DNA of 64,000 bases, from NCBI GenBank assembly GCA_902579395.1, contig CACHGK010000005.1:28481-92480 (forward strand). The letters run 5' to 3'. Position 1 is the stretch's first letter. Each line of letters starts with the position of its first letter. Made by a program: the position numbers and the translations under genes. A model generated the notes under the pieces. It was not told the DNA's origin. It saw only the letters and a program-made list of their open reading frames with translations, and did not search any database. This document shows positions 39,959-53,896 of this stretch, one piece after another. Source of the DNA: an uncultured Alphaproteobacteria bacterium (GTDB lineage: Bacteria; Pseudomonadota; Alphaproteobacteria; Methylaequorales; Methylaequoraceae).

Positions 39959-40678
39959 ATGAATTTTTTGGTTAGTGTGAAAAATATAAGTGAAATTTCT
40001 GATGAGTTATTAAATGAGATCGATATACTTGATTTAAAAGATCCGTCGAAAGGATCTATTGGCGCATGGAATAATTTGGAAATAAAAAAAGTAATAACAC
40101 GATTTAAAAATAGGACGAAAATTTCGGCAACTCTTGGTGATATATTTAATAATAAAAAATTTAAAGAAAGCTTAGAGAGTTTTGACAACTTAAATTTAGA
40201 TTTTGTAAAATTCGGTTTACTATCATTTGCTAATGAAAATTTATTTGAAAAATTGAGATTAATTTCTTTAAAAAAATTTAGAACCAAATTGGTATGTGTT
40301 GTTTTTGTTGACCATAAAGAAACATTTGATCGGGTGAATAGAAGTATAAAAATTTTTTTAGATGCTGGAATTGAGTTTATTTTACTTGATACTTTTAGAA
40401 AAGATGCAGGCAATCTTCTAGATTTTTGTAATAGGAAGTATTTGGAGAAATTTATATCGAAATGTAAGCATTTCAATATTAAAGTTGGACTAGCTGGCGG
40501 GTTAAAAGAATCTCAAGTACCAACTTTATTATCTTTAAAACCAAATATAATTGGTTTTCGATCAGCTGTTTGTGAATTTTATAAAAGAGAATCGTTAATA
40601 AAACTCAAAAAGGTAAGAAGGATTTCATTTCATTTTAATTCTTTCAGAAGTAATGCAACTGAAAGAGCAGGTGCATGA
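39959..40678 (+). CDS. mfnB: (5-formylfuran-3-yl)methyl phosphate synthase-like (MfnB)
   Basis: LLVSV..DILDLKDPSKGSIGAW; VGLAGGLKESQVPTLLSLKPNIIGFRSAVC. Confidence 0.85.
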   Translation: MNFLVSVKNISEISDELLNEIDILDLKDPSKGSIGAWNNLEIKKVITRFKNRTKISATLGDIFNNKKFKESLESFDNLNLDFVKFGLLSFANENLFEKLRLISLKKFRTKLVCVVFVDHKETFDRVNRSIKIFLDAGIEFILLDTFRKDAGNLLDFCNRKYLEKFISKCKHFNIKVGLAGGLKESQVPTLLSLKPNIIGFRSAVCEFYKRESLIKLKKVRRISFHFNSFRSNATERAGA

Positions 40679-41655
40679 TAGGAAGCCTTTATATTTAGGT
40701 TTGATTTTTTTAAAAATGAATGAAGATATTTGGTTTTATATTTTTTTTGCTTTAAGAAATTCGTAAGAACCTCTTGACCTATCCCAGAAGTGACAACAGT
40801 GAATTTTTTTAAGTCAAAATTACATCTAAGTTTCTCTATAGTATCTGAAATAGTATTAAGTTGAATTGAAGAAATCCTTTGGCAAATTTTTAACAATCTT
40901 TCTTTCATGTTTTCGTTATAATCAAATCCGAAGCTTCTTGATAATCTTTTGAGACTATTGCGTATTGTTTTATTAGATCCATCCGCCGTTACGTCTAAAT
41001 CAATTTTTCTATTCAATTTTTTTAATATTCTATATATATCAGATGAATCAGAAAAAAACTCTGGTATAATTTTTAGTCGTTGGTTTTCTAAATTAATTTC
41101 AGAAGTTATTCCAAATAAAGGAGTTCTAGTGAAACCGGTATAAAGAAGTTCAAGATTTTTTATTCTTGAAAAATCATCAAATGATTCATTTAATAGTTTT
41201 CCATCTTTAATACATATTAGATCTGTTGTTGTGGATCCAAAATCCACAATTATTCCATTCCTAATTTTTTCTTTAAAAAAATTTCCTATACTATGCCAAT
41301 TCATAGATATCAATTCATGATGTTTTGGTTTTTTTAAAAAAGTTTTGGATGAAGTTACATAGAAGAAATTATCAAAGTTAAGAAATTTGCAATATTCCAT
41401 TATTGTGGATACTCCATGTTTTCTATTTTTGAAATTATCACATAGCTCAGCTGACATCGTTAAACCACATTTTATTTTTTTTTGGGGTAATAATTTATTT
41501 AACTCTAAGAACTTATTTTTCAAAGTTTTAATATCTTTCCATATTTTGCAACTTGAATAATCTACGAATCTGATTATCTCATTTTCGTCAACACCAATTA
41601 TTTTTAAATGTGCACCGCCAATATCAATTCCTAAGTGAGAAACTTCTTTTGTCAT
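40630..41655 (-). CDS. hydantoinase/oxoprolinase-like H4MPT-linked C1 transfer pathway protein
   Basis: LGIDIGGAHLKI, GLTMSAELCDNF, IVDFGSTTTDLI. Confidence 0.83.
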   Translation of the reverse strand: MTKEVSHLGIDIGGAHLKIIGVDENEIIRFVDYSSCKIWKDIKTLKNKFLELNKLLPQKKIKCGLTMSAELCDNFKNRKHGVSTIMEYCKFLNFDNFFYVTSSKTFLKKPKHHELISMNWHSIGNFFKEKIRNGIIVDFGSTTTDLICIKDGKLLNESFDDFSRIKNLELLYTGFTRTPLFGITSEINLENQRLKIIPEFFSDSSDIYRILKKLNRKIDLDVTADGSNKTIRNSLKRLSRSFGFDYNENMKERLLKICQRISSIQLNTISDTIEKLRCNFDLKKFTVVTSGIGQEVLTNFLKQKKYKTKYLHSFLKKSNLNIKASYHAPALSVALLLKELK

Positions 41656-42614
41656 TAAAAAATATATTTGAATTTTTTTAGTAACTTGGGATAAATATTT
41701 TCTAATTCTTTATTTAAGTAAAAATTAGTAATTGCATCGATAGTTTTTTGGTCATAAGACATCTCAATACCACAATATGAACTTGTGAATCTCGAATTTA
41801 TTTCTAAAACTAACCATTTTCTTTTATGTAAAATTATGTCAACACCAATTATACCAAATAGTCCTTTGAATGTTCTACTTATTTGATTTGCAAGATATTC
41901 GATTTCTTTTCTATTATTTTCCAATCCTCCCATTAAACAACCGATCTGATAAATTCTATTTTTTTCAAGTTTTATTATTTGTTCATTACAACAAATAACT
42001 CTATTTTCTCCATTTTTACATAACATTAAAAAGCTTCCCTTTTTACCTGAATAAAATTTTTGAAATATATAATTTTTATCTCTTTTTATATCTTCATAAT
42101 TTAGTATTCTTACATTATCTGATCCTGCACCATATTCCGGTTTTGAGACGAATTGTGTATTTAATAAAATTTTTTTGTCTCTAATTGTTTTAACTGTTGG
42201 TATTTCATATTTATTTAAAAAATCAATTGTTTTTATTTTAGATGAGAAAATTTTAATGCAATCAAAACTCGATCCCAAAGTTTTAAACAACTTATTTGTA
42301 ATTTTAAAAAGGTCGATATGGATTTTACTAGTTTCGGGAGCTACAAGAATTACTTCATGATCAGCGTCTAATTTATTTAAAATGTCAATAAATGAAACAT
42401 TTATACTAGTAAAATAATATTTTACTTTTTTAAATTTTTGAGTATTAAGATTTTTATTTCGCAAAACAATAATATTTTTGATTCTATCACTTTTTACAAA
42501 ATTCTTTATTATGGAATTAGTGATGTTGAGAGCCTCTTCAAATATTTTTTGGTTTTGGCGTTTTTCAATATTCGATTGCGCTGTAAAATATTCTAAAATA
42601 ACTAACTTTTTCAT
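41655..42614 (-). CDS. ATP-grasp protein (H4MPT cluster)
   Basis: VSKPEYGAGSDNVRI, GLFGIIGVDIILHKRKWLVLEINSRFTSSY. Confidence 0.82.
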   Translation of the reverse strand: MKKLVILEYFTAQSNIEKRQNQKIFEEALNITNSIIKNFVKSDRIKNIIVLRNKNLNTQKFKKVKYYFTSINVSFIDILNKLDADHEVILVAPETSKIHIDLFKITNKLFKTLGSSFDCIKIFSSKIKTIDFLNKYEIPTVKTIRDKKILLNTQFVSKPEYGAGSDNVRILNYEDIKRDKNYIFQKFYSGKKGSFLMLCKNGENRVICCNEQIIKLEKNRIYQIGCLMGGLENNRKEIEYLANQISRTFKGLFGIIGVDIILHKRKWLVLEINSRFTSSYCGIEMSYDQKTIDAITNFYLNKELENIYPKLLKKFKYIF

Positions 42615-42629
42615 CCACTGAAATTCTTT

Positions 42630-43325
42630 ATGAAAATTATATTAGCAGTTGATATATTGAATGGCAAAGTTGTAAAAGCTTTTGCAGGTTTAAGAATGAA
42701 TTACAAACCACTTTTAATTCAAAATAGAGATTTTTCAGATGCTATTAAATTGATAAAGGAGGTAAAAAAAAGAACTCTCTTGAAAGAAGTATATATTGCA
42801 GACCTAAATTCAATTAATAAAAAAGGAACCAACAATCAATATATAGAAAAAGTTCTTAGAAATTTTCCTGAATTAATTTTTCTTATTGATGCTGGTTTCG
42901 ACTATCCGATTTCAGTTTACAAATATCACAAAAGGAAAGAATATAAAAATTTAAAAAACTATGAGATCGTATTAGGGACCGAGACTTTAAGAAATTTTAA
43001 ACTGTCATCTTTTAAACAATCAAAAAAATTTCAGCTTTCTATTGATTTTAATGGTGAACAAGAAAGTTGGTTAAGAAAAATTAGAAAGGAAAGGGTGGAC
43101 TGCAATATTATTTTGATGTTTTTGGAAAAGATTGGTGGACGTGGACTGGACTTACCTCTCATAAAAAAAATTATAGGTCTGTTAAATTCAAGCAAGGTTA
43201 CGGTCGGCGGTGGCTTGAAAACAGAGGGACAAATTTCGCAACTATCCAGAATCGGCGTAGAGAGTGTGCTCTCTTCCACTCTCTTACATCGAAAAATATC
43301 TAGGGACGAAATTTTTGGTCCCTAG
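42630..43325 (+). CDS. HisA/HisF-related TIM-barrel protein (H4MPT cluster)
   Basis: ILAVDILNGKVVKAFAG, GRGLDLPLIKKI, VTVGGGLKTEGQI. Confidence 0.82.
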   Translation: MKIILAVDILNGKVVKAFAGLRMNYKPLLIQNRDFSDAIKLIKEVKKRTLLKEVYIADLNSINKKGTNNQYIEKVLRNFPELIFLIDAGFDYPISVYKYHKRKEYKNLKNYEIVLGTETLRNFKLSSFKQSKKFQLSIDFNGEQESWLRKIRKERVDCNIILMFLEKIGGRGLDLPLIKKIIGLLNSSKVTVGGGLKTEGQISQLSRIGVESVLSSTLLHRKISRDEIFGP

Positions 43326-43412: not shown

Positions 43413-43922
43413 TCATTTTGCAGCGAAAGGATGTTCTGCAGAATCTTTTTCAGAAACAACATCTTTGGCTTTTGGTTCACCAGCAACTGCTCTTTCAATA
43501 GATTCTTTTGTAGCTTGATAGTTATATTCTTGGATTTTTTTATCATCTTCTGCTAACCAGTGAATGAAAACTCCAACAGATATAAATAAATCATCGGCTT
43601 CATCAGCAGGAATTGTTCCTTCTGCAACACAATCCATAACAGCTTTGGCAACACCATGTTGTGCTGGACCGAACATTTGTACTGCTTGTTTTGCGCCTTT
43701 TATTGTTACTTTGTTAAACATACAAGTTGCTGGTTTGGTCATTAGGTTTGGTGCAACAACCGCAAGAAGAGCAGTAAAGCCATCTTTATTGTTTGTTAAA
43801 CTATTTGCAAAAGCGGTTTCGGCTGGAGTGCCTCTTGGTCCAATTATTAAGTCGATGTGAGCTACTTCGTTTCCATCACCAACTAATGATTCGCCTACTA
43901 GCATTTTTGTGATTTTTGCCAT
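43413..43922 (-). CDS. fae: formaldehyde-activating enzyme
   Basis: [51 protein letters not shown]. Confidence 0.97.
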
Positions 43923-43965: not shown

Positions 43966-44805
43966 TTATAAAGGAAACTTGAATATATCTCTAATTTTGT
44001 GTATTAGCAAGGTTGTTACTGTTAAATCAGCACAAGTTCCTGGATTGTAGTTTAATTTTTTTAGATAATGATCAAAATTCTTCAGTAAACTATGATTATT
44101 TTTATACATATTTAATTTCTTTTTTAGTTCGCAGCATTTTTTAAATACAATGTTGGCTTTATATTGACCAAATTTTCTTTGAATGTGACTATCAGTTGAT
44201 GTGGATAAAAAACTTATATATAAAATTTCGATAGCAACCTTTCTTGAAGTGCATCTCAATAAATATGTAAAAATTGGCAAGCCAAAATCAAAGATTTCCT
44301 TATAGTTGTTATTGTAGCATTTTGATATTCTATCCCATTCTGAACTTATCTTAATCATTTTTGAGAAGGAAATTTTTTTTTTATCAAAAATATTTCCAGG
44401 TCCTTTGTAATTTTTTAAACCAGCTGGTGAAGCAAATTCTATAGCTTTAGTAAAAAGTTCACCATCTTTTTTCGAAACATTCGATAATAATTTTTCCAAG
44501 TCTCTTTTGAAGTTTTTAGTGCCACTGAGACTAATTCTTATTAATGGTGTGCATAATAAGATAATACCTAAATTATAATTTGAGTTTAATTCTGTTTTAC
44601 ATTTTTTTGTTGACAGAAATATAGATTCTCCAAAACTTAAATTTTTATTTGTTATTATCTCGGAAGAGATTTTAGCTGCATAACGAAATTTTTTTTCGCT
44701 CATACCATGAATTTTGGAAAAAATACTATGGTTGCCAGGTTTAAATGCTGTTAATTCCTCACAACAAGACTGATAATACAATTTCTTTAATATTTCAGAA
44801 GACAT
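43966..44805 (-). CDS. triphosphoribosyl-dephospho-CoA synthase (CitG)-like protein of H4MPT clusters
   Basis: ELTAFKPGNHSIFSKIHGM, CTPLIRI, NPGTCADLTVTTLLIHKI. Confidence 0.83.
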   Translation of the reverse strand: MSSEILKKLYYQSCCEELTAFKPGNHSIFSKIHGMSEKKFRYAAKISSEIITNKNLSFGESIFLSTKKCKTELNSNYNLGIILLCTPLIRISLSGTKNFKRDLEKLLSNVSKKDGELFTKAIEFASPAGLKNYKGPGNIFDKKKISFSKMIKISSEWDRISKCYNNNYKEIFDFGLPIFTYLLRCTSRKVAIEILYISFLSTSTDSHIQRKFGQYKANIVFKKCCELKKKLNMYKNNHSLLKNFDHYLKKLNYNPGTCADLTVTTLLIHKIRDIFKFPL

Positions 44806-45664
44806 TTTTTTTCATATTATTGATGAAATCCTCAACTAAAATCTCTGACAAGTTTTTACTTTCAAGTTCTTGAATTGATTTCCACGATGGGATGCTGTTC
44901 ACCTCTAGTACATAGTATTCATCTTCAAAAAATTTAAGATCAATTCCTCCATAACCCAGATTGAATAACTTTGATACTTTTCTGCTTAAGTAACTAATTT
45001 CATTATTTATTTTCATTTTTTTTATAAATGCACCTTGGTATGCATTTGTGATTATTCTATTAGATAATCTTTTCATAATTGCAATAGGTTCATGGTTACT
45101 TACTAACACTCTTATGTCACAATGTTTTTTTTTATTTACATCCCCTAAAAATTTTTGAAGATAGTAAACATTTCCTACTGCGTCTGATTTTTTTAAATCA
45201 CTGAGACTCTTAATTAAAAGTATATTTTTTCCTTGAGAACCAAATATTGGTTTTAGCAAGAAATTATTTTGACTGTTTAATTCTTTAATTTTCCCTATTC
45301 TGACCATGGTCTCTGGAGATCTAATCTTATTTATTTCAAGAAGCCCAGTTGTTCTGACTTTATCCACGGTTTTTTCTATTGTATCTGCCGAATTGTGAAT
45401 ATAAATTCCTTCTTGTTTTAAAAGATGTAAGAATGTCAATTTTGTTGTTATTTCTTCCAATGAACCATTTTTTATAAACCTTACCCAGATTCCATTAATA
45501 TTTTTTAATGCTTTATTGAAATGAAAGATTTTCTCTTTACTGAACATGGCATATATTTCATCGTAATTTAATTTTATAACTTTACACTTTTTTTTTAGAA
45601 GATTCGATTCTAACTGCTGACTGTGCCAATCATGAATATCACTGATAATTGCTACTGAATACAT
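44795..45664 (-). CDS. RimK/MptN-like ATP-grasp ligase
   Basis: FLLKPIFGSQGKNILLI, LFNLGYGGIDLKFFEDEYYVLEVNSIPSW. Confidence 0.85.
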   Translation of the reverse strand: MYSVAIISDIHDWHSQQLESNLLKKKCKVIKLNYDEIYAMFSKEKIFHFNKALKNINGIWVRFIKNGSLEEITTKLTFLHLLKQEGIYIHNSADTIEKTVDKVRTTGLLEINKIRSPETMVRIGKIKELNSQNNFLLKPIFGSQGKNILLIKSLSDLKKSDAVGNVYYLQKFLGDVNKKKHCDIRVLVSNHEPIAIMKRLSNRIITNAYQGAFIKKMKINNEISYLSRKVSKLFNLGYGGIDLKFFEDEYYVLEVNSIPSWKSIQELESKNLSEILVEDFINNMKKNVF

Positions 45665-45665
45665 A

Positions 45666-46616
45666 TCAGTTAGTAAATGATTTCTCCACTAAATCAAAAT
45701 TTACTTTTCCAGAGGTATAAGACATACCAGTTTTTTTTGAATTAATTAGCACACATGCTGGACTGAATAGTGATCCATCTATTTTATAGAAATCCTTGTC
45801 ATAATCTAAAAAGATTTGTTTGAATGGTTTGCCATAATCTTTAGAGTTAAAACTAGGTAAATTTTCTGATAGTTTTATTATTTCGCTTTCATCCCCATCT
45901 ATACAAATACTAACCTTTCCGCCGTAAATTATTGCATCATTTGTTCTACCCATCCCAGAGATAAAGTCATTTGCAATAGGAGGTATTGGGGCAGTTGCAA
46001 AACCATGAAGAATTTTGTTTAATGGAAATTTAAGTTCATGCATCTTATGAATTGCAACCTCTAGGACTCTTGATACAACTTGGATGGTTCCGCAGAGTGA
46101 TGTAGTTGGTGTTAGGATAAATGTAATGTTTTTTGGCAGAACTTTACAATCATTTGATATTTTTCTTACTATTTCTTCTGGAGGATTTGTTCCAACTTCT
46201 AAAACAATGCAAGTAGAAGAACTTTTATCTTTATAATTAAGTTCTTTAAAAATTTCCTCCTTCTGAGCTAAAGATCTAGCTGGTCCCGAACCAAGTGAAA
46301 AAAAATTATTATGATTTAAACTCCAGCCAGCATATTGAGATCCCAAACATGCTAAAACAGGATTTGAGGCATGAACAGACACACTTTTATATGATGAATT
46401 GAAATTAAATTCTGGAACAATATTGACATAACCTAAACCACCCAGACATATCTCAGCTATTTTTCTTCCACCTTCAATACTTCCGAAGGAGTTTATTCCT
46501 GCATCAATAATTTTAGACCCAAGAGGTCCTGTAGAAATCGACAATCCAAGCTTATTACTTTCTTTTTTAAGATCATCTACTAAAAGATTAGTTTCTTTAT
46601 TTAAGCTATAACTCAT
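45666..46616 (-). CDS. mch: methenyltetrahydromethanopterin cyclohydrolase
   Basis: KIAEICLGGLGYVNIVPEF, VHASNPVLACLGSQYAGWSL, GTNPPEEIV. Confidence 0.96.
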   Translation of the reverse strand: MSYSLNKETNLLVDDLKKESNKLGLSISTGPLGSKIIDAGINSFGSIEGGRKIAEICLGGLGYVNIVPEFNFNSSYKSVSVHASNPVLACLGSQYAGWSLNHNNFFSLGSGPARSLAQKEEIFKELNYKDKSSSTCIVLEVGTNPPEEIVRKISNDCKVLPKNITFILTPTTSLCGTIQVVSRVLEVAIHKMHELKFPLNKILHGFATAPIPPIANDFISGMGRTNDAIIYGGKVSICIDGDESEIIKLSENLPSFNSKDYGKPFKQIFLDYDKDFYKIDGSLFSPACVLINSKKTGMSYTSGKVNFDLVEKSFTN

Positions 46617-46623
46617 ATATTAA

Positions 46624-47688
46624 TTAATCTAAATTATTTAAAATTATATACGATAATTTTTTAAATTTTTTTTTTAATTTTTCTGTATCGTTTGATTCTA
46701 AATGAATAAGACAAATTGGTTCATTTTTGTTTATTTTTGCATTTTCTAATGGAAGTTCTGAAAATGAACGTGAATTTTTGAGACTTTTTATGAAATCAAA
46801 TTTTTTTCCATTGATTAGTATTTTTTTTTTACTGTAAATAATTTGTGTCCCAAAAAATCTTTTGATTGTATTTTCTTTATTTCTAAAATTAACATCTTTA
46901 TATATATTCCTGTGAATTTTATAAATTAAATTTGTACTTAATCCTGGTCTCCCGTTTAATTCGGCAATATAAATCTTCTCTGTTTCAAGTTCTAAAATTA
47001 AATCTAAATTGTTTATTCCATTTAAATTATAAATTTGCGTTACTTGTTTACATATTTTAGAAAGTTTATCAAAAAGCGAACAATTTATCTTTTTAGTTAT
47101 GATGCCTTTAATTAAAAAAGGTTTATAAGTATCTTCTTGAAAATATTGATTACATATAGTCAGCACTTCTATTTTTTTATTAAGTACAAAAAATTGTATT
47201 GAAAGATGCTCACCAAAAATTTTTTTCTGATAATATTCATCTTGCTTCAATGAATTAGATTTAAGGTTTTTAATAAATACTCCTCCGTATGATTTAAATT
47301 TTTTTATCAAATATTTGTCATTAATTGGTTTTTTTCTAGACCATTGTGGCACACGAATTCCTTTTTGTTTTAAATCTTGGAAGAAGGCTTGTGAATTAAT
47401 ATCTTTCAAAATATTGGAACTATTCCCTCTGTTTTTTCTTCTAGATATAAGATCATTTTCATTGATTAATTCAGCAAAACCAGAGCCAATCAATATTTCC
47501 ATTTTTTCTTCAGAATCTAAAAAGTTAAGAATTTTTTTTAATTTCTGGATATTATAATTAATTTGGAAAACTTTCTGGCAATACTTTTGTAAATTTAAAC
47601 TTCTATATTTACATATTGCATAGACTAAATAATTTTGCTTAAAAAAAATCTTCGCTAAATCTTCGCATGAAGAAGCAACAATTATGAT
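46624..47688 (-). CDS. ATP-grasp protein; N-terminus extended upstream of track ORF, no canonical start codon
   Basis: Open frame upstream of 47502 reads IIIVASSCEDLAKIFFKQNYLVYAICKYRSLNLQKYCQKVFQINYNIQKLKKILNFLDSEEKMEILIGSGFAELI, a plausible N-terminal lobe; no ATG/GTG/TTG. Confidence 0.7.
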   Translation of the reverse strand: MIIVASSCEDLAKIFFKQNYLVYAICKYRSLNLQKYCQKVFQINYNIQKLKKILNFLDSEEKMEILIGSGFAELINENDLISRRKNRGNSSNILKDINSQAFFQDLKQKGIRVPQWSRKKPINDKYLIKKFKSYGGVFIKNLKSNSLKQDEYYQKKIFGEHLSIQFFVLNKKIEVLTICNQYFQEDTYKPFLIKGIITKKINCSLFDKLSKICKQVTQIYNLNGINNLDLILELETEKIYIAELNGRPGLSTNLIYKIHRNIYKDVNFRNKENTIKRFFGTQIIYSKKKILINGKKFDFIKSLKNSRSFSELPLENAKINKNEPICLIHLESNDTEKLKKKFKKLSYIILNNLD

Positions 47689-47699
47689 TTCTTTTTTTC

Positions 47700-48596
47700 T
47701 TAAAGATCTAATATTTCTCTTGCGGTTGTTAAAGCTTCATCAAAATTAAGATAAAGCGGTTTTTCTGTAGAACACATTTTTTCAAACATTTTATATTGTG
47801 TCTTTACTTTTATATCACCAGAGGTCAGAGGACCTATTGAAAAAGCTCCGCAATCGTGCTTTTCATCATTATCGTTCAAATTTACACCTTCTAACCCTGC
47901 CGGAGGAACGGCATTTACATCTGCTAAAATCATTGCTTTTTTAGCAATACCTAATTGTTTTTTGCTTATTACTTGCGTCCCAGCTCTGGCAGCACAAAAT
48001 ATGATATCCGCATCAGGGAGGTAGGATGAATTAAGTTCATCTGATGAACCGTCACCGGGGATTATTTCAACATTAAACCTAGATTGGTATTCATTTGCTT
48101 TTTTTTCAACATTTGTTATGCCATCATAACCGACAATAGTGCATTTTGAACCTTCTTTTGCGCACATTATAGCGGAAATGCCTCCAACTATTCCTTTACC
48201 ACCATAGATAATAATGTTTTTATTTTTAAAATCTGTTTTAAACTTTTCCTTCAAAGTTTTTTCTGTACAAGCAACCATGGCGGCGGCTGTTGTAAACGAG
48301 CCTGCTGGATCAGGAAAGACTGAAATTTCAAATGGAGGCACCATTGACTTTTTTGCCATATCCATCATATCAAGCGCAAGCGAAGCGTCTTTTCCGCATA
48401 TAAAAATCCCTGTCTTTTTTGCATTATTTACAGATCTAGAAAATATAGCATCTTGCACAAGACCTTTAACATCAGTTAAGTTTACATTAGTATAAGGAAT
48501 TACAACATCATATCCAGCATCGCATGCCATATTGACGTCGAAAGGGCTTACATTTCCCTGAGGGCTTATCATGTGAAGAATATTTTTTTTTGACAT
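47700..48596 (-). CDS. mtdB: NAD(P)-dependent methylenetetrahydromethanopterin dehydrogenase
   Basis: ILHMISPQGNVSPFDVNMACDAGYD; FPDPAGSFTTAAAMVAC; IIIYGGKGIVGGISA. Confidence 0.95.
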   Translation of the reverse strand: MSKKNILHMISPQGNVSPFDVNMACDAGYDVVIPYTNVNLTDVKGLVQDAIFSRSVNNAKKTGIFICGKDASLALDMMDMAKKSMVPPFEISVFPDPAGSFTTAAAMVACTEKTLKEKFKTDFKNKNIIIYGGKGIVGGISAIMCAKEGSKCTIVGYDGITNVEKKANEYQSRFNVEIIPGDGSSDELNSSYLPDADIIFCAARAGTQVISKKQLGIAKKAMILADVNAVPPAGLEGVNLNDNDEKHDCGAFSIGPLTSGDIKVKTQYKMFEKMCSTEKPLYLNFDEALTTAREILDL

Positions 48597-49570
48597 TATT
48601 TCACCTTTTTTTTAGTTATTAATTTTCCTGAGTTTCTTCCATCTATTTTTATAATCTCGACCCCATTTATATCATTTAAATTAATATATTCTTCCAAATA
48701 TTTTGACAACTCATTTCTTTTTTTTGAATTTTCACAAAATACGAATCCAGTTGGTCCCCAAGAGGATTGACCAAAACACTTGATGCCTTTTTTTTTTAAA
48801 CTTGTAAATATTCTCTCTACTTTTTGGCTAGCATATTTTGTGCTTTTTCCATAAAAGGTTTGCGACATCATATCTTGAATTGTTCTTATTCCATTTGAGA
48901 ATTCTCTAAAGTTTTTTTCTATTAAACCAGGAATGACATTCATTAATAAGGCTTTGCAATTGGCGTTTGTTTTATAATTATCAACTTTATTTAAATCTTT
49001 GAATTCTTGGATTTCTCTATTCCCGTGAATTCCTTTCACGCTCTTATCAAAAATCATCAAAATTTTCCAATCTTTGGGCCATTTAATATTAAGTATATTC
49101 AATGGAGGGTTTTTTGATCTTTTTGATTTTCCTACATCTACATTGAATCCTCCATTCTTAAAAGATTCAATTCCAATTCCCGATCTTTTACCTCTTTTTA
49201 AAAGACAAGCAATTTGATTAATACTTAATTTAAGTTTATCAAATTTAGCTATCAAATATCCCACTGATAATGCAAGCTGAGTTCCTGAACCAAGGCCGCT
49301 ATGTGCGGGTATCTGGTTTAATACTGAAATTTTAAAATTTGATAAATTATGGTTTTTTTTTAAAATTTTTATGATTTTTAAAATCCTTGATTTAGTCAAC
49401 TTGTCTAAACATAAAATTTCAAATCTATCAGAACTTTCAATTTGTAATTTTAAAAAAAAATTTGATATAGTTAAACCAATGCTGCCATATTTTCGATGGC
49501 TTTTTTTCTCCAAGTCAAGAAATCCTAAATGAATTCTTGCTGGTGAAGTTAGACTTAAAATTTTTTTCAT
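48596..49570 (-). CDS. mptG: beta-ribofuranosylaminobenzene 5'-phosphate synthase-like GHMP kinase-fold protein
   Basis: SPARIHLGFLDLEKKSHRKYGSIGLTI; IPAHSGLGSGTQLALSVG; GQSSWGPTGFVF. Confidence 0.88.
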   Translation of the reverse strand: MKKILSLTSPARIHLGFLDLEKKSHRKYGSIGLTISNFFLKLQIESSDRFEILCLDKLTKSRILKIIKILKKNHNLSNFKISVLNQIPAHSGLGSGTQLALSVGYLIAKFDKLKLSINQIACLLKRGKRSGIGIESFKNGGFNVDVGKSKRSKNPPLNILNIKWPKDWKILMIFDKSVKGIHGNREIQEFKDLNKVDNYKTNANCKALLMNVIPGLIEKNFREFSNGIRTIQDMMSQTFYGKSTKYASQKVERIFTSLKKKGIKCFGQSSWGPTGFVFCENSKKRNELSKYLEEYINLNDINGVEIIKIDGRNSGKLITKKKVK

Positions 49571-49664: not shown

Positions 49665-50036
49665 GTGAATAAAATTAAAGTTTTTAGCCAGCCTGAGATA
49701 GAAAGTTTTTTAAACAAAAATTTAGATGGATGGAGTTATGACGGTAAATGGATTAGAAAAACATACAAAACGCATAGCTGGAAGTCCACTTTGATGGTTA
49801 TCAACGCAGTAGGTCATCTAGCTGAGTCGGCATGGCATCACCCAGATATACAAGCATCTTATGCTTTTGTTGAGGTAAAGTTGATGAATCATTCAGAGAA
49901 AGGAATCACTCAATTAGATTTTGATTTGGCCAGGAAGATTGATGAGTTTATTTTGTGGAATCCAAGAAATGAGGAATCTCCTTTAGAGGGCACTCCTTCA
50001 GATCCTCGTTTTGCCTACATAAAATATAACAAGTAA
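49665..50036 (+). CDS. 4a-hydroxytetrahydrobiopterin dehydratase (PCD/DCoH) family
   Basis: GWSYDGKWIRKTY, AESAWHHPDIQASYAFVEVKLMNHSEKGIT. Confidence 0.9.
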   Translation: MNKIKVFSQPEIESFLNKNLDGWSYDGKWIRKTYKTHSWKSTLMVINAVGHLAESAWHHPDIQASYAFVEVKLMNHSEKGITQLDFDLARKIDEFILWNPRNEESPLEGTPSDPRFAYIKYNK

Positions 50037-51133
50037 TGAGACTAAATCTTGAAGATTTTTTTTGGTTTGGATCAACCGTTGAAAAAAACTTCGTTGATAC
50101 ATTAGAAAAAGATTATAAACTCAACTCTTCGCCACTTATTCGAGGAAAAAAAGCTTCTTTAAATGAGGTCATAAAAGAAATCAAAAAAATATTTAACAAT
50201 AGAACTTTGACTCATTTTGATGGGCTGAGTTGTGATCAGAAATCTTTAAATTCTATCTTTAATCTTGCAGAAAAAAATAGATCATCCCTTAACCATGCTG
50301 AGTCAGAGGAAATAAACAATTTTTATTCAGCTTTCCAAAAGTATGGAGGGTCATTGATTTCGTATAATGAGATTAAGAGAAGATCTGATTTGATTATATT
50401 TGTTGGAAGTTTTGATGATTTTCAGGTTAAGAGATTTGTGAATAAAATTGATTGGGATAAATCCAAAATTAACAATAATATATTTGTGATTGGTAAAAAA
50501 AAAATTGAATCATTGAAAAACAATTTGAAAGTAGAAAACTTATCAGATCTTGGTGGCCATATTCTTAATTGTTTCAAGAATGTTTCAAACAAGAAACAAT
50601 TCTCAAAATTACAAAAATCGATAATGTATTCAAAATATCCCGTGATAGTAATAAATTCAAAGACTGGTCTGATTTTTACAGAACATGTGTTAAGAGTTTT
50701 AGCATTAATAAATAATAATCTTAAGAAGGTTCGTTTATTTAGATTTAATGGATCAGATAATTCATCTGGTTTTGTCAATAGTTGTGTTACAAAAACTGGA
50801 TTTCCAAGTGCTGTTAGTTTTAATGATTGGGGAGTAACATATAATCCCACTGAGTATAATGCGAAAGAGCAAAAAAAAACAAAAAAAACACAGTTTTTCT
50901 TTTCAAATTTGAATCAAAATCTTAAGGTTGAAAAATTTAAGGAAAATATTTTCATAGGACATCCAAATTTGAAAAATAAAGAAGATTTTGATATTTATGT
51001 ACCAGTAAAAACGCCAGGGATAGATGTAGATGGGATAGTTGTACGATCAGATGGTGCTGGTGTTCTGAAGCTAGGAAAAAAAATTAATTCAAATTATATA
51101 GAACTAAACCAATTAATTAATCAATTGATGTAA
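50036..51133 (+). CDS. fhcB: formyltransferase/hydrolase complex subunit B (FwdB-like)
   Basis: FDGLSCDQKS region, IFIGHPNLKN, IYVPVKTPGIDVDGIVVRSDGAGVLKL; followed by fhcD. Confidence 0.85.
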   Translation: MRLNLEDFFWFGSTVEKNFVDTLEKDYKLNSSPLIRGKKASLNEVIKEIKKIFNNRTLTHFDGLSCDQKSLNSIFNLAEKNRSSLNHAESEEINNFYSAFQKYGGSLISYNEIKRRSDLIIFVGSFDDFQVKRFVNKIDWDKSKINNNIFVIGKKKIESLKNNLKVENLSDLGGHILNCFKNVSNKKQFSKLQKSIMYSKYPVIVINSKTGLIFTEHVLRVLALINNNLKKVRLFRFNGSDNSSGFVNSCVTKTGFPSAVSFNDWGVTYNPTEYNAKEQKKTKKTQFFFSNLNQNLKVEKFKENIFIGHPNLKNKEDFDIYVPVKTPGIDVDGIVVRSDGAGVLKLGKKINSNYIELNQLINQLM

Positions 51134-51134
51134 A

Positions 51135-52019
51135 ATGATTGATATTGAAGACACATTTGCAGAGGCTTTTCCGATGAAAGCATCAAGATTAATCATTACA
51201 GCTTTTAATAAAAAATGGGCTAAGAAAGCAGCTGAATCTTTTTGTGGATTTGCAACCTCAGTAATTGCATGTGGTTGTGAGGCAGGGATTGAAATCGATC
51301 TGCCTTCAAGTCAAACGCCAGATGGTAGGCCGGGAGTATCAGTTTTAGTTTTTGCTGTTTCCTCAAAAGAATTAGAAAAGCAACTTGTGAATAGAGCTGG
51401 TCAATGTGTTATGACAACACCTACTACTGCTATTTTTTCTGGTAATACAAGTGAAGATAAAATCCCACTTGGTAATGCTTTGAGATATTTTGGAGATGGT
51501 TTTCAAATCTCAAAAAGTCTAGGTGATAGAAGGTATTGGAGAATTCCAGTTATGGATGGTGAATTTATATGTGAAGATTTTGCTTATAAAATGAAAGGTA
51601 TAGGAGGTGGAAATTTTTTGATTCTAGGCGAGAATACAGAGTGTGTTTTGGGAGCAGCTGAAATTGCAGTTAAAAAAATGAACAAATTAAAAAACGTAAT
51701 TTTACCATTTCCTGGAGGAATTGTAAGATCTGGTTCCAAAGTTGGTTCTAAATATAAAAATCTTATAGCCTCTACAAACTTTGAATATTGCCCGAGTTTA
51801 AAGGGCGTTGTTAAATCAAAACTAGATAATAATACGAGATGTGTTTTAGAGATTGTGATTGATGGTATAAACGAAGAAGATATTTCTTCAGCAATGAGGC
51901 ATGGGATTTTGGAGATTATAAATTCAAAAGGGCTTAAAGGTGTAAGTAGAATTTCAGCCGGAAACTATGGAGGTAAGTTAGGCCCTCATTTATTCAAACT
52001 TAAGTCTGTAATTTCATGA
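51135..52019 (+). CDS. fhcD: formylmethanofuran:H4MPT formyltransferase
   Basis: DTFAEAFPMKASRLIITA, AESFCGFATSVIACGCEAGIE, ISAGNYGGKLG. Confidence 0.95.
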   Translation: MIDIEDTFAEAFPMKASRLIITAFNKKWAKKAAESFCGFATSVIACGCEAGIEIDLPSSQTPDGRPGVSVLVFAVSSKELEKQLVNRAGQCVMTTPTTAIFSGNTSEDKIPLGNALRYFGDGFQISKSLGDRRYWRIPVMDGEFICEDFAYKMKGIGGGNFLILGENTECVLGAAEIAVKKMNKLKNVILPFPGGIVRSGSKVGSKYKNLIASTNFEYCPSLKGVVKSKLDNNTRCVLEIVIDGINEEDISSAMRHGILEIINSKGLKGVSRISAGNYGGKLGPHLFKLKSVIS

Positions 52020-52831
52020 ATAGAATAACAATTAAATTAAAGAGAAATATAGATTCAGAATTGGATCTTAGAAATATCAGTAAAATTGATTTTGAAAATA
52101 ATTTGACTCAGATATCAAAAATTAAATTGCTTTTTCAGAATCGTGAAATAAATCTTGGCAAATTATTTAATTTAAAGATTAAAAAGATAAATGGAAAGAA
52201 TAATGAATTAATTGTTTTAAATTTAAATCAAAATTGCAACTATTTAGGCTGGAAGTGGAAAAAAGATATTTTAAAAGTTAATTCTAACGTTGGATCATTC
52301 CTTGGAGCTAAAATGAGTGGAGGGGAAATACATGTAAACGGTTCTGTTAAGAACTTTACAGGCTCTCAAATGACAAATGGAAAGATTTTAATAAAATCAA
52401 ATTCATTGGATTTTGTTGGCTCTTCTTTGCCCGGAAATAAAACAGGAATGTCAGGTGGTGTCATAATTATTAACGGAAATACAAGAGATTATTTAGGATT
52501 AAACATGAGAAAAGGGTTAATTTTTGTTGCGGGTAGTTCTAGAAATTATTGTTGTAACAACATGATAGCTGGAACTGTAATTATTAAAAATGGTATAGGA
52601 AAATTTTTTGGAATTGGCATGAGAAGAGGAACAGTATTTTCACATAAAAAAGTCTCAGTTGGAGATTTTTTTATTGAGAGTAATGAACTTCATCCTATTT
52701 TTTTTAATTTACTCTATAATTTTCTTTATAAAAATTATGGCTTGAAAGTTTTCAATAAAAATAAAATTTTCAGAAGGTTTTTTGGTGATAAGAATGTCGA
52801 TGGGGTTGGGGAGCTATTAATCACCAAATAG
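52016..52831 (+). CDS. fhcC: formyltransferase/hydrolase complex subunit C (FwdC-like)
   Basis: GXMXXG repeat region: GAKMSGGEIHVNGSV, GSQMTNGKILI, GLNMRKGLIFVAG. Confidence 0.92.
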   Translation: MNRITIKLKRNIDSELDLRNISKIDFENNLTQISKIKLLFQNREINLGKLFNLKIKKINGKNNELIVLNLNQNCNYLGWKWKKDILKVNSNVGSFLGAKMSGGEIHVNGSVKNFTGSQMTNGKILIKSNSLDFVGSSLPGNKTGMSGGVIIINGNTRDYLGLNMRKGLIFVAGSSRNYCCNNMIAGTVIIKNGIGKFFGIGMRRGTVFSHKKVSVGDFFIESNELHPIFFNLLYNFLYKNYGLKVFNKNKIFRRFFGDKNVDGVGELLITK

Positions 52832-52901
52832 TAAATTATAAATTATCAAAAATAATAAAATCGAACATTGTAAAAAAATTATAATTAATCAATTAAAGAA
52901 T

Positions 52902-53887
52902 ATGAATAAGAAAATTTTAGTTACCGGAGCAAATGGATTTCTAGGTTCAGCAATTACGAAGATTGCGCTGAAAAAAAAATATAAAGTAAGTGTTTTAGTC
53001 AGAGAAAAGGCCGACTTAAAAAATTTAGAACAAATTCAATCTAGCATTCAAATATATCGAGGAGATTTAAGAGAAATTGAAAGCTTTAGATACCCGATTT
53101 TAAAATCTGATATCATTTTTCACGTTGCAGCAGATTATAGATTATGGGCACGAAAGCCTAAAGAGTTGTATGACTCAAATGTAAGAGGCACAGAAAATGT
53201 ATGTTCCCTTGTAAGCGAACTCAACAAGAAATTAATTTATACTTCAAGTGTTGCAACTCTTGGATTGTCAGAGGGAAAAGAATCTAATGAGGATACATAT
53301 GTTAACTTTAAGAACATGGTTGGTGACTATAAAAAGTCTAAATATTTGGCTGAAAGAATTGTTCTTAAATTTGTAAAGAAAAAAAAACTTAAAGCTATAA
53401 TTGTAAATCCGTCAACGCCAATTGGTCCGGGCGATATCAAACCAACGCCCACTGGAAAAATTATACTGGATGTTTTAAGAGGAAAAATGCCTGCATACGT
53501 GGATACAGGGCTTAACCTGGTACATGTTGATGATGTTGCGGAAGGACATTTTTAGCTCTCAAATATGCAAAATACGGTGAAAAATACATTTTAGGTGGAG
53601 AAAATTTAGATTTTAAGGATTTTCTAGATTACATCTCAGAATATGGATCTGTAGCAAAAGTAAAGGTAAAAATTAATCCAAAAATTCTTTTTCCATTAGC
53701 TTATATAAACGATTTCATTTTTAGATTTTTAATTAATAGAACTCCATCTTTAACTGTTGACGGATTAAAGATGTCTACCAAGAAGATGTTTTTTTCATCT
53801 GATAAGGCAAAAAAGAAACTTCGTTATAGACCTAGATCAGTTAAAAATGCTATAAAAGACTCTGTATTATGGTTTAAAAAATTTTAA
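52902..53887 (+). pseudogene. hpnA: hopanoid-associated NAD-dependent epimerase HpnA, frameshifted in T-run at 53549-53553
   Basis: VTGANGFLGSAI...HVDDVAEGHF* then in another frame LALKYAKYGEKYILGGENLDFKDFLDYI...VLWFKKF*; adding one T restores one ORF. Confidence 0.88.
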
Positions 53888-53896
53888 GATATTAAT

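Follow-up and report, generated by a model that had tools for sequence, protein, structure and literature searches.

The Fhc complex makes formate from formyl-H4MPT, with methylofuran (MYFR) serving as a formyl carrier that the complex binds tightly (PMC8141765). The reference system is FhcABCD of Methylorubrum extorquens (6s6y), and homologues of all four of its subunits occur in the alphaproteobacterial family described here. FhcD and FhcC match their M. extorquens counterparts, FhcB has the same fold with no visible cofactor motif, and the FhcA proteins of relatives are full length with the catalytic histidine, lysine and aspartate positions; the difference is that the family's fhcA lies outside the operon. 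The Sedimenticola-type Fhc of Gammaproteobacteria is also encoded by genes that are not all contiguous, with fhcB and fhcA together and fhcD approximately 15 kb away, and its FhcA falls on the family's side of the FhcA tree. However, its fhcA is beside fhcB, and the N-terminus of its FhcB keeps a CPFCxxxC motif. More distantly, the archaeal tungsten formylmethanofuran dehydrogenase FwdABCD (5t5i) has homologous A, B and C subunits, but the FhcB encoded by the window (the whole 64,000-nucleotide stretch of DNA that was analysed) is without the metal-ligand cysteine and the Fe-S motif of the archaeal enzyme.

The window contains three fhc genes in uninterrupted succession, all on the + strand; one base separates fhcB from fhcD, and fhcD overlaps fhcC by 4 bases. 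These ORF coordinates agree with a preliminary description of this DNA, which placed the fhcB stop at 51133, the fhcD start at 51135 and a 4 bp overlap at the second junction, and which rightly reported that no ORF of the window encodes FhcA. The run is headed by a pterin-4a-carbinolamine dehydratase-like gene, which is conserved at the loci of relatives, and the features of the cluster are as follows:

40630..41655, - strand: Hydantoinase_A-family gene, putative MfnF/Orf9 candidate (PF01968, 28 bits)
41655..42614, - strand: ATP-grasp gene, putative candidate for MYFR/H4MPT biosynthesis (PF02655, 95 bits)
42630..43325, + strand: His_biosynth-family gene (PF00977, 47 bits)
43413..43922, - strand: fae, formaldehyde-activating enzyme (PF08714, 241 bits)
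43966..44805, - strand: CitG-like gene of the H4MPT cluster (PF01874, 135 bits)
44795..45664, - strand: MptN/RimK-like glutamate ligase gene (NF040720, 152 bits, under its cut-off)
45666..46616, - strand: mch, methenyl-H4MPT cyclohydrolase (TIGR03120, 386 bits)
46624..47502, - strand: ATP-grasp gene of the H4MPT/MYFR cluster (PF02655; position conserved in relatives)
47700..48596, - strand: mtdB, methylene-H4MPT dehydrogenase (PF09176, 119 bits)
48596..49570, - strand: beta-RFAP synthase family gene, H4MPT biosynthesis (TIGR00144, 158 bits)
49665..50036, + strand: pterin-4a-carbinolamine dehydratase-like gene (NF002017, 81.9 bits; cut-off 80)
50036..51133, + strand: fhcB, divergent, 365 aa (TIGR03129, 72.7 bits; FwdB and 6s6y_B profile matches; AlphaFold fold)
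51135..52019, + strand: fhcD, formyl-MYFR:H4MPT formyltransferase, 294 aa (TIGR03119, 414 bits; 6s6y_D, E 4e-86)
52016..52831, + strand: fhcC, GXGXG beta-helix subunit, 271 aa (TIGR03122, 186 bits; 6s6y_C, E 8e-30; PF01493)

FhcD and FhcC both exceed the curated cut-offs of their family models (TIGR03119 and TIGR03122, respectively). With fae, mtdB and mch all in the window, the cluster encodes a pathway that requires formyl release. For MYFR, the window holds candidate side-chain biosynthesis genes only. The glutamate ligase gene at 44795..45664 is probably myfB, which would supply the MYFR polyglutamate, MyfB being a glutamate ligase (PMC8141765); likewise, the His_biosynth-family gene at 42630..43325 is probably orf17 of MYFR biosynthesis, Orf17 being a PF00977 member (PMC8141765). 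Downstream of the cluster, hpnA (52902-53890) is broken in the window, its frame stopping at 53555, behind a homopolymer of five T, with the remainder lying in another frame. The HpnA of relatives is intact at 328-338 aa, and the break may be either a genuine frameshift or an error at the homopolymer. Most relatives also have an opposite-strand gene of approximately 200 aa between fhcC and hpnA, which is absent from the corresponding interval of the window (52831-52902).

The ORF at 50036-51133 falls below the curated cut-off of the FhcB family model (327.8 bits for TIGR03129). Nevertheless, a profile built from ten family FhcB members matches archaeal FwdB (7e-18) and M. extorquens FhcB (6s6y_B, 3e-5), and the AlphaFold model of the window protein (mean pLDDT 76.5) has M. 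extorquens FhcB as its top PDB match (6s6y, E 8e-20, TM 0.71). Because the profile search and the fold both match M. extorquens FhcB, the identification of this ORF as FhcB is secure, despite its weak family-model score. The preliminary description had advised checking FhcB for altered active-site residues, and the motif check found no CxxC motif, nor any cysteine aligned with the metal-ligand cysteine of FwdB. Such a protein would fit the expectation of a hydrolytic, rather than a redox, complex; since both the metal-ligand cysteine and the Fe-S motif are missing, a redox reaction would not be expected. One relative (L052) retains a CNFCxxxC remnant at the N-terminus of its FhcB. Across the family, alignment indicates FhcB evolves much faster than FhcD, with 31-55% identity to the window protein, as against 64-79% for FhcD. 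Relative to the M. extorquens complex, the FhcB and FhcC sequences are far more divergent than those of FhcD and FhcA.

The window is on contig C5 of a draft genome comprising 1,303,360 bases (1.30 Mb) in 25 contigs, with an estimated completeness of 79.8%. The preliminary description had proposed a genome-wide search with FhcA models, and no FhcA was found in the assembled ~80% using PF01979, PF07969 and TIGR03121. The genome has just two amidohydrolase-like genes (443-446 aa), both of which matched TIGR03121 over short stretches (15-21 bits), and one of them holds the stretch with the best score, 21 bits. A long DNA query, taken from the fhcA region of a relative, had no match, in a search with no working control at such divergence, and this result was given no weight. 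Genes that neighbour fhcA in relatives are similarly missing: there was no match in the genome to folE (TIGR00063) or to pgk (PF00162), whereas the same searches succeeded for folE in 11 of the 14 control genomes and for pgk in all 14. Correspondingly, a joined FolE, HisI, Pgk and Rpe query, with FhcD as an internal control, recovered FhcD alone.

Synteny was used to place the contig ends of this genome on contig C2 (184 kb) of the sister genome G002. Contigs C8, C11 and C15 tile the sister contig from 2 to about 90 kb, with C15 ending within a gene, and contigs C16, C14 and C17 tile it from 126.7 to about 169 kb; no contig of the genome was placed on the intervening ~90-126.7 kb. On that contig, G002 carries its fhcA at 107.2-108.8 kb, near the centre of the uncovered interval. 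Hence fhcA is absent here owing to a gap in the assembly, some 37 kb long, as the flanking contigs tile both sides, fhcA is mid-gap, and its neighbours are missing too. From the synteny and the missing neighbouring housekeeping genes, we infer that this individual genome carries fhcA within the gap.

The gene is widespread among relatives. FhcA was present, far above the cut-off, in 21 of 24 other family genomes (E < 1e-165): within the genus it was found in 11 of the 12 others, and elsewhere in the family in 10 of 12. The exceptions were a genus member at 60% completeness and two further members of the family at 56-66%. Both fhcA and fhcD were found in 14 relatives, on different contigs in every case, and in ten of these the contig ends permit a minimum distance between the genes of 29-165 kb. 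The fhcA locus is itself conserved, with the gene divergent from folE-hisI in 22 of the 23 named family loci, the 23rd being truncated by a contig end. None of the 23 has fhcD near fhcA within the flanks examined. Beyond fhcA, most relatives have an RND efflux gene, followed by rpe, fructose-bisphosphate aldolase, pgk and transketolase. Conversely, the order fhcB-fhcD-fhcC, with its flanking H4MPT genes, is common to the nine relatives examined, and the direct B-D junction is therefore a trait that the family inherited from its ancestor, rather than an assembly fault. The separation of fhcA from fhcBDC is a lineage-wide gene-order variant. In one family member (L050; G020:C5:50001-70000, ~13889), a further operon break was observed: TPR-like and ETF-ubiquinone oxidoreductase-like genes precede fhcD-fhcC, with neither fhcB nor the H4MPT cluster upstream.

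The FhcA proteins of relatives align over their full length with M. extorquens FhcA (6s6y_A, E 1.5e-126). Invariant in the family are HSH, the lysine of KVINAGG, HVHCNN, the histidine pair of MHLAH and the aspartate of TTDHPNG, and these motif residues, in and around the metal site, are also kept in nearly all other FhcA compared. Based on knowledge of the amidohydrolase fold, we take them to be the catalytic residues.

It is thus highly likely that this organism encodes an ordinary four-subunit FhcABCD from genes at two loci, with fhcA inside the gap in this assembly. The fhcB-fhcD-fhcC genes lie in the H4MPT/MYFR cluster of the window, and fhcA would stand alone at a second locus, at least tens of kb away, divergent from folE-hisI and adjoining an RND efflux operon. 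FhcD would take the formyl group off H4MPT and pass it to methylofuran; FhcA, the product of the distant gene, would act in trans and hydrolyse formyl-methylofuran to formate, with FhcB and FhcC as structural subunits. By analogy, the Fhc proteins would assemble and work as in M. extorquens. It is very unlikely that the permanently unlinked FhcA is instead a separate hydrolase, meeting a fast-evolving FhcBDC only transiently, or that it has its own role beside folE.

The preliminary description had envisaged that fhcA had moved, been replaced, or been lost. Relocation is what the loci of relatives display, with an intact fhcA elsewhere in the 14 related genomes that have both fhcA and fhcD; in this genome, the corresponding position is the gap. 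A true loss from the strain, leaving FhcBDC to act as a formyltransferase or carrier module that releases no formate, is highly unlikely. Although the available 80% of the genome is without FhcA, what the assembly lacks extends to pgk and folE, losses not expected of a free-living cell, and the synteny gap covers fhcA itself. Relatives retain the protein, and the low completeness of the three lacking it is as incompleteness predicts. The proposal that FhcBCD functions as a stand-alone formyltransferase or carrier, through which C1 units exit by a new route, is not supported, since the fhcA stretch is missing together with pgk and folE. Replacement by a non-homologous or paralogous hydrolase could call on the two amidohydrolase-family genes of the genome. 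However, their short, weak TIGR03121 matches and their lengths of 443-446 aa are as expected of dihydroorotase-type enzymes, equally weak matches occur in all 14 control genomes, and relatives have a true FhcA, making this substitution extremely unlikely. The adjacency of fhcA and fhcD in gammaproteobacterial, and most alphaproteobacterial, operons checked might suggest that assembly error had dropped fhcA from between fhcB and fhcD, and the preliminary description considered such an excision between 51133 and 51135. Yet the B-D-C order recurs in nine independently assembled relatives, in which fhcA is elsewhere, and the chance of such an error is negligible.

With the four subunits encoded at two loci, C1 units need no new way out of the pathway, and a false lead is removed. 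This streamlined marine alphaproteobacterial family retains the whole H4MPT route of formaldehyde oxidation, its fhcA occupying a second, conserved locus. Inferring gene loss from a single operon of a draft genome is an error that will recur. The 23 named fhcA loci come mostly from marine single-cell genomes labelled uncultured Alphaproteobacteria, with one labelled HIMB59-MED-G10; judging by these labels, the family is likely in or near the HIMB59 clade. No mention of the H4MPT formaldehyde-oxidation pathway was found in PMC10308909 and PMC3815206, which deal with the HIMB59/AEGEAN-169 clade.

Outside the family, the closest FhcA proteins are encoded by lone genes in gammaproteobacterial methylotrophs. 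That these represent the same split was ruled out, as 14 of the 16 gammaproteobacterial methylotroph genomes checked have two FhcA, one near fhcD and one distant. On the closed chromosome of Methylomonas sp. LW13, the two genes are 820 kb apart, and in one of the 14 genomes the FhcA near fhcD is broken into two frames. The FhcA tree separates an operonic type, with an HTHIGGGK-like motif, from a second type (HSHIAGGNV) comprising the family's FhcA, the lone gammaproteobacterial copies and the Sedimenticola type; the split has a support of 99, in a tree built by a quick method that gave long-branch warnings and from which 6s6y_A was left out. Most of the gammaproteobacterial methylotrophs checked have FhcA of both types. 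M. extorquens FhcA (6s6y_A) bears the second-type motif. The 80 loci compared were selected by their similarity to the family's FhcA, and hence are no basis for frequency estimates. The lone gammaproteobacterial FhcA (L080-L136, L211-L224) retain all the catalytic positions.
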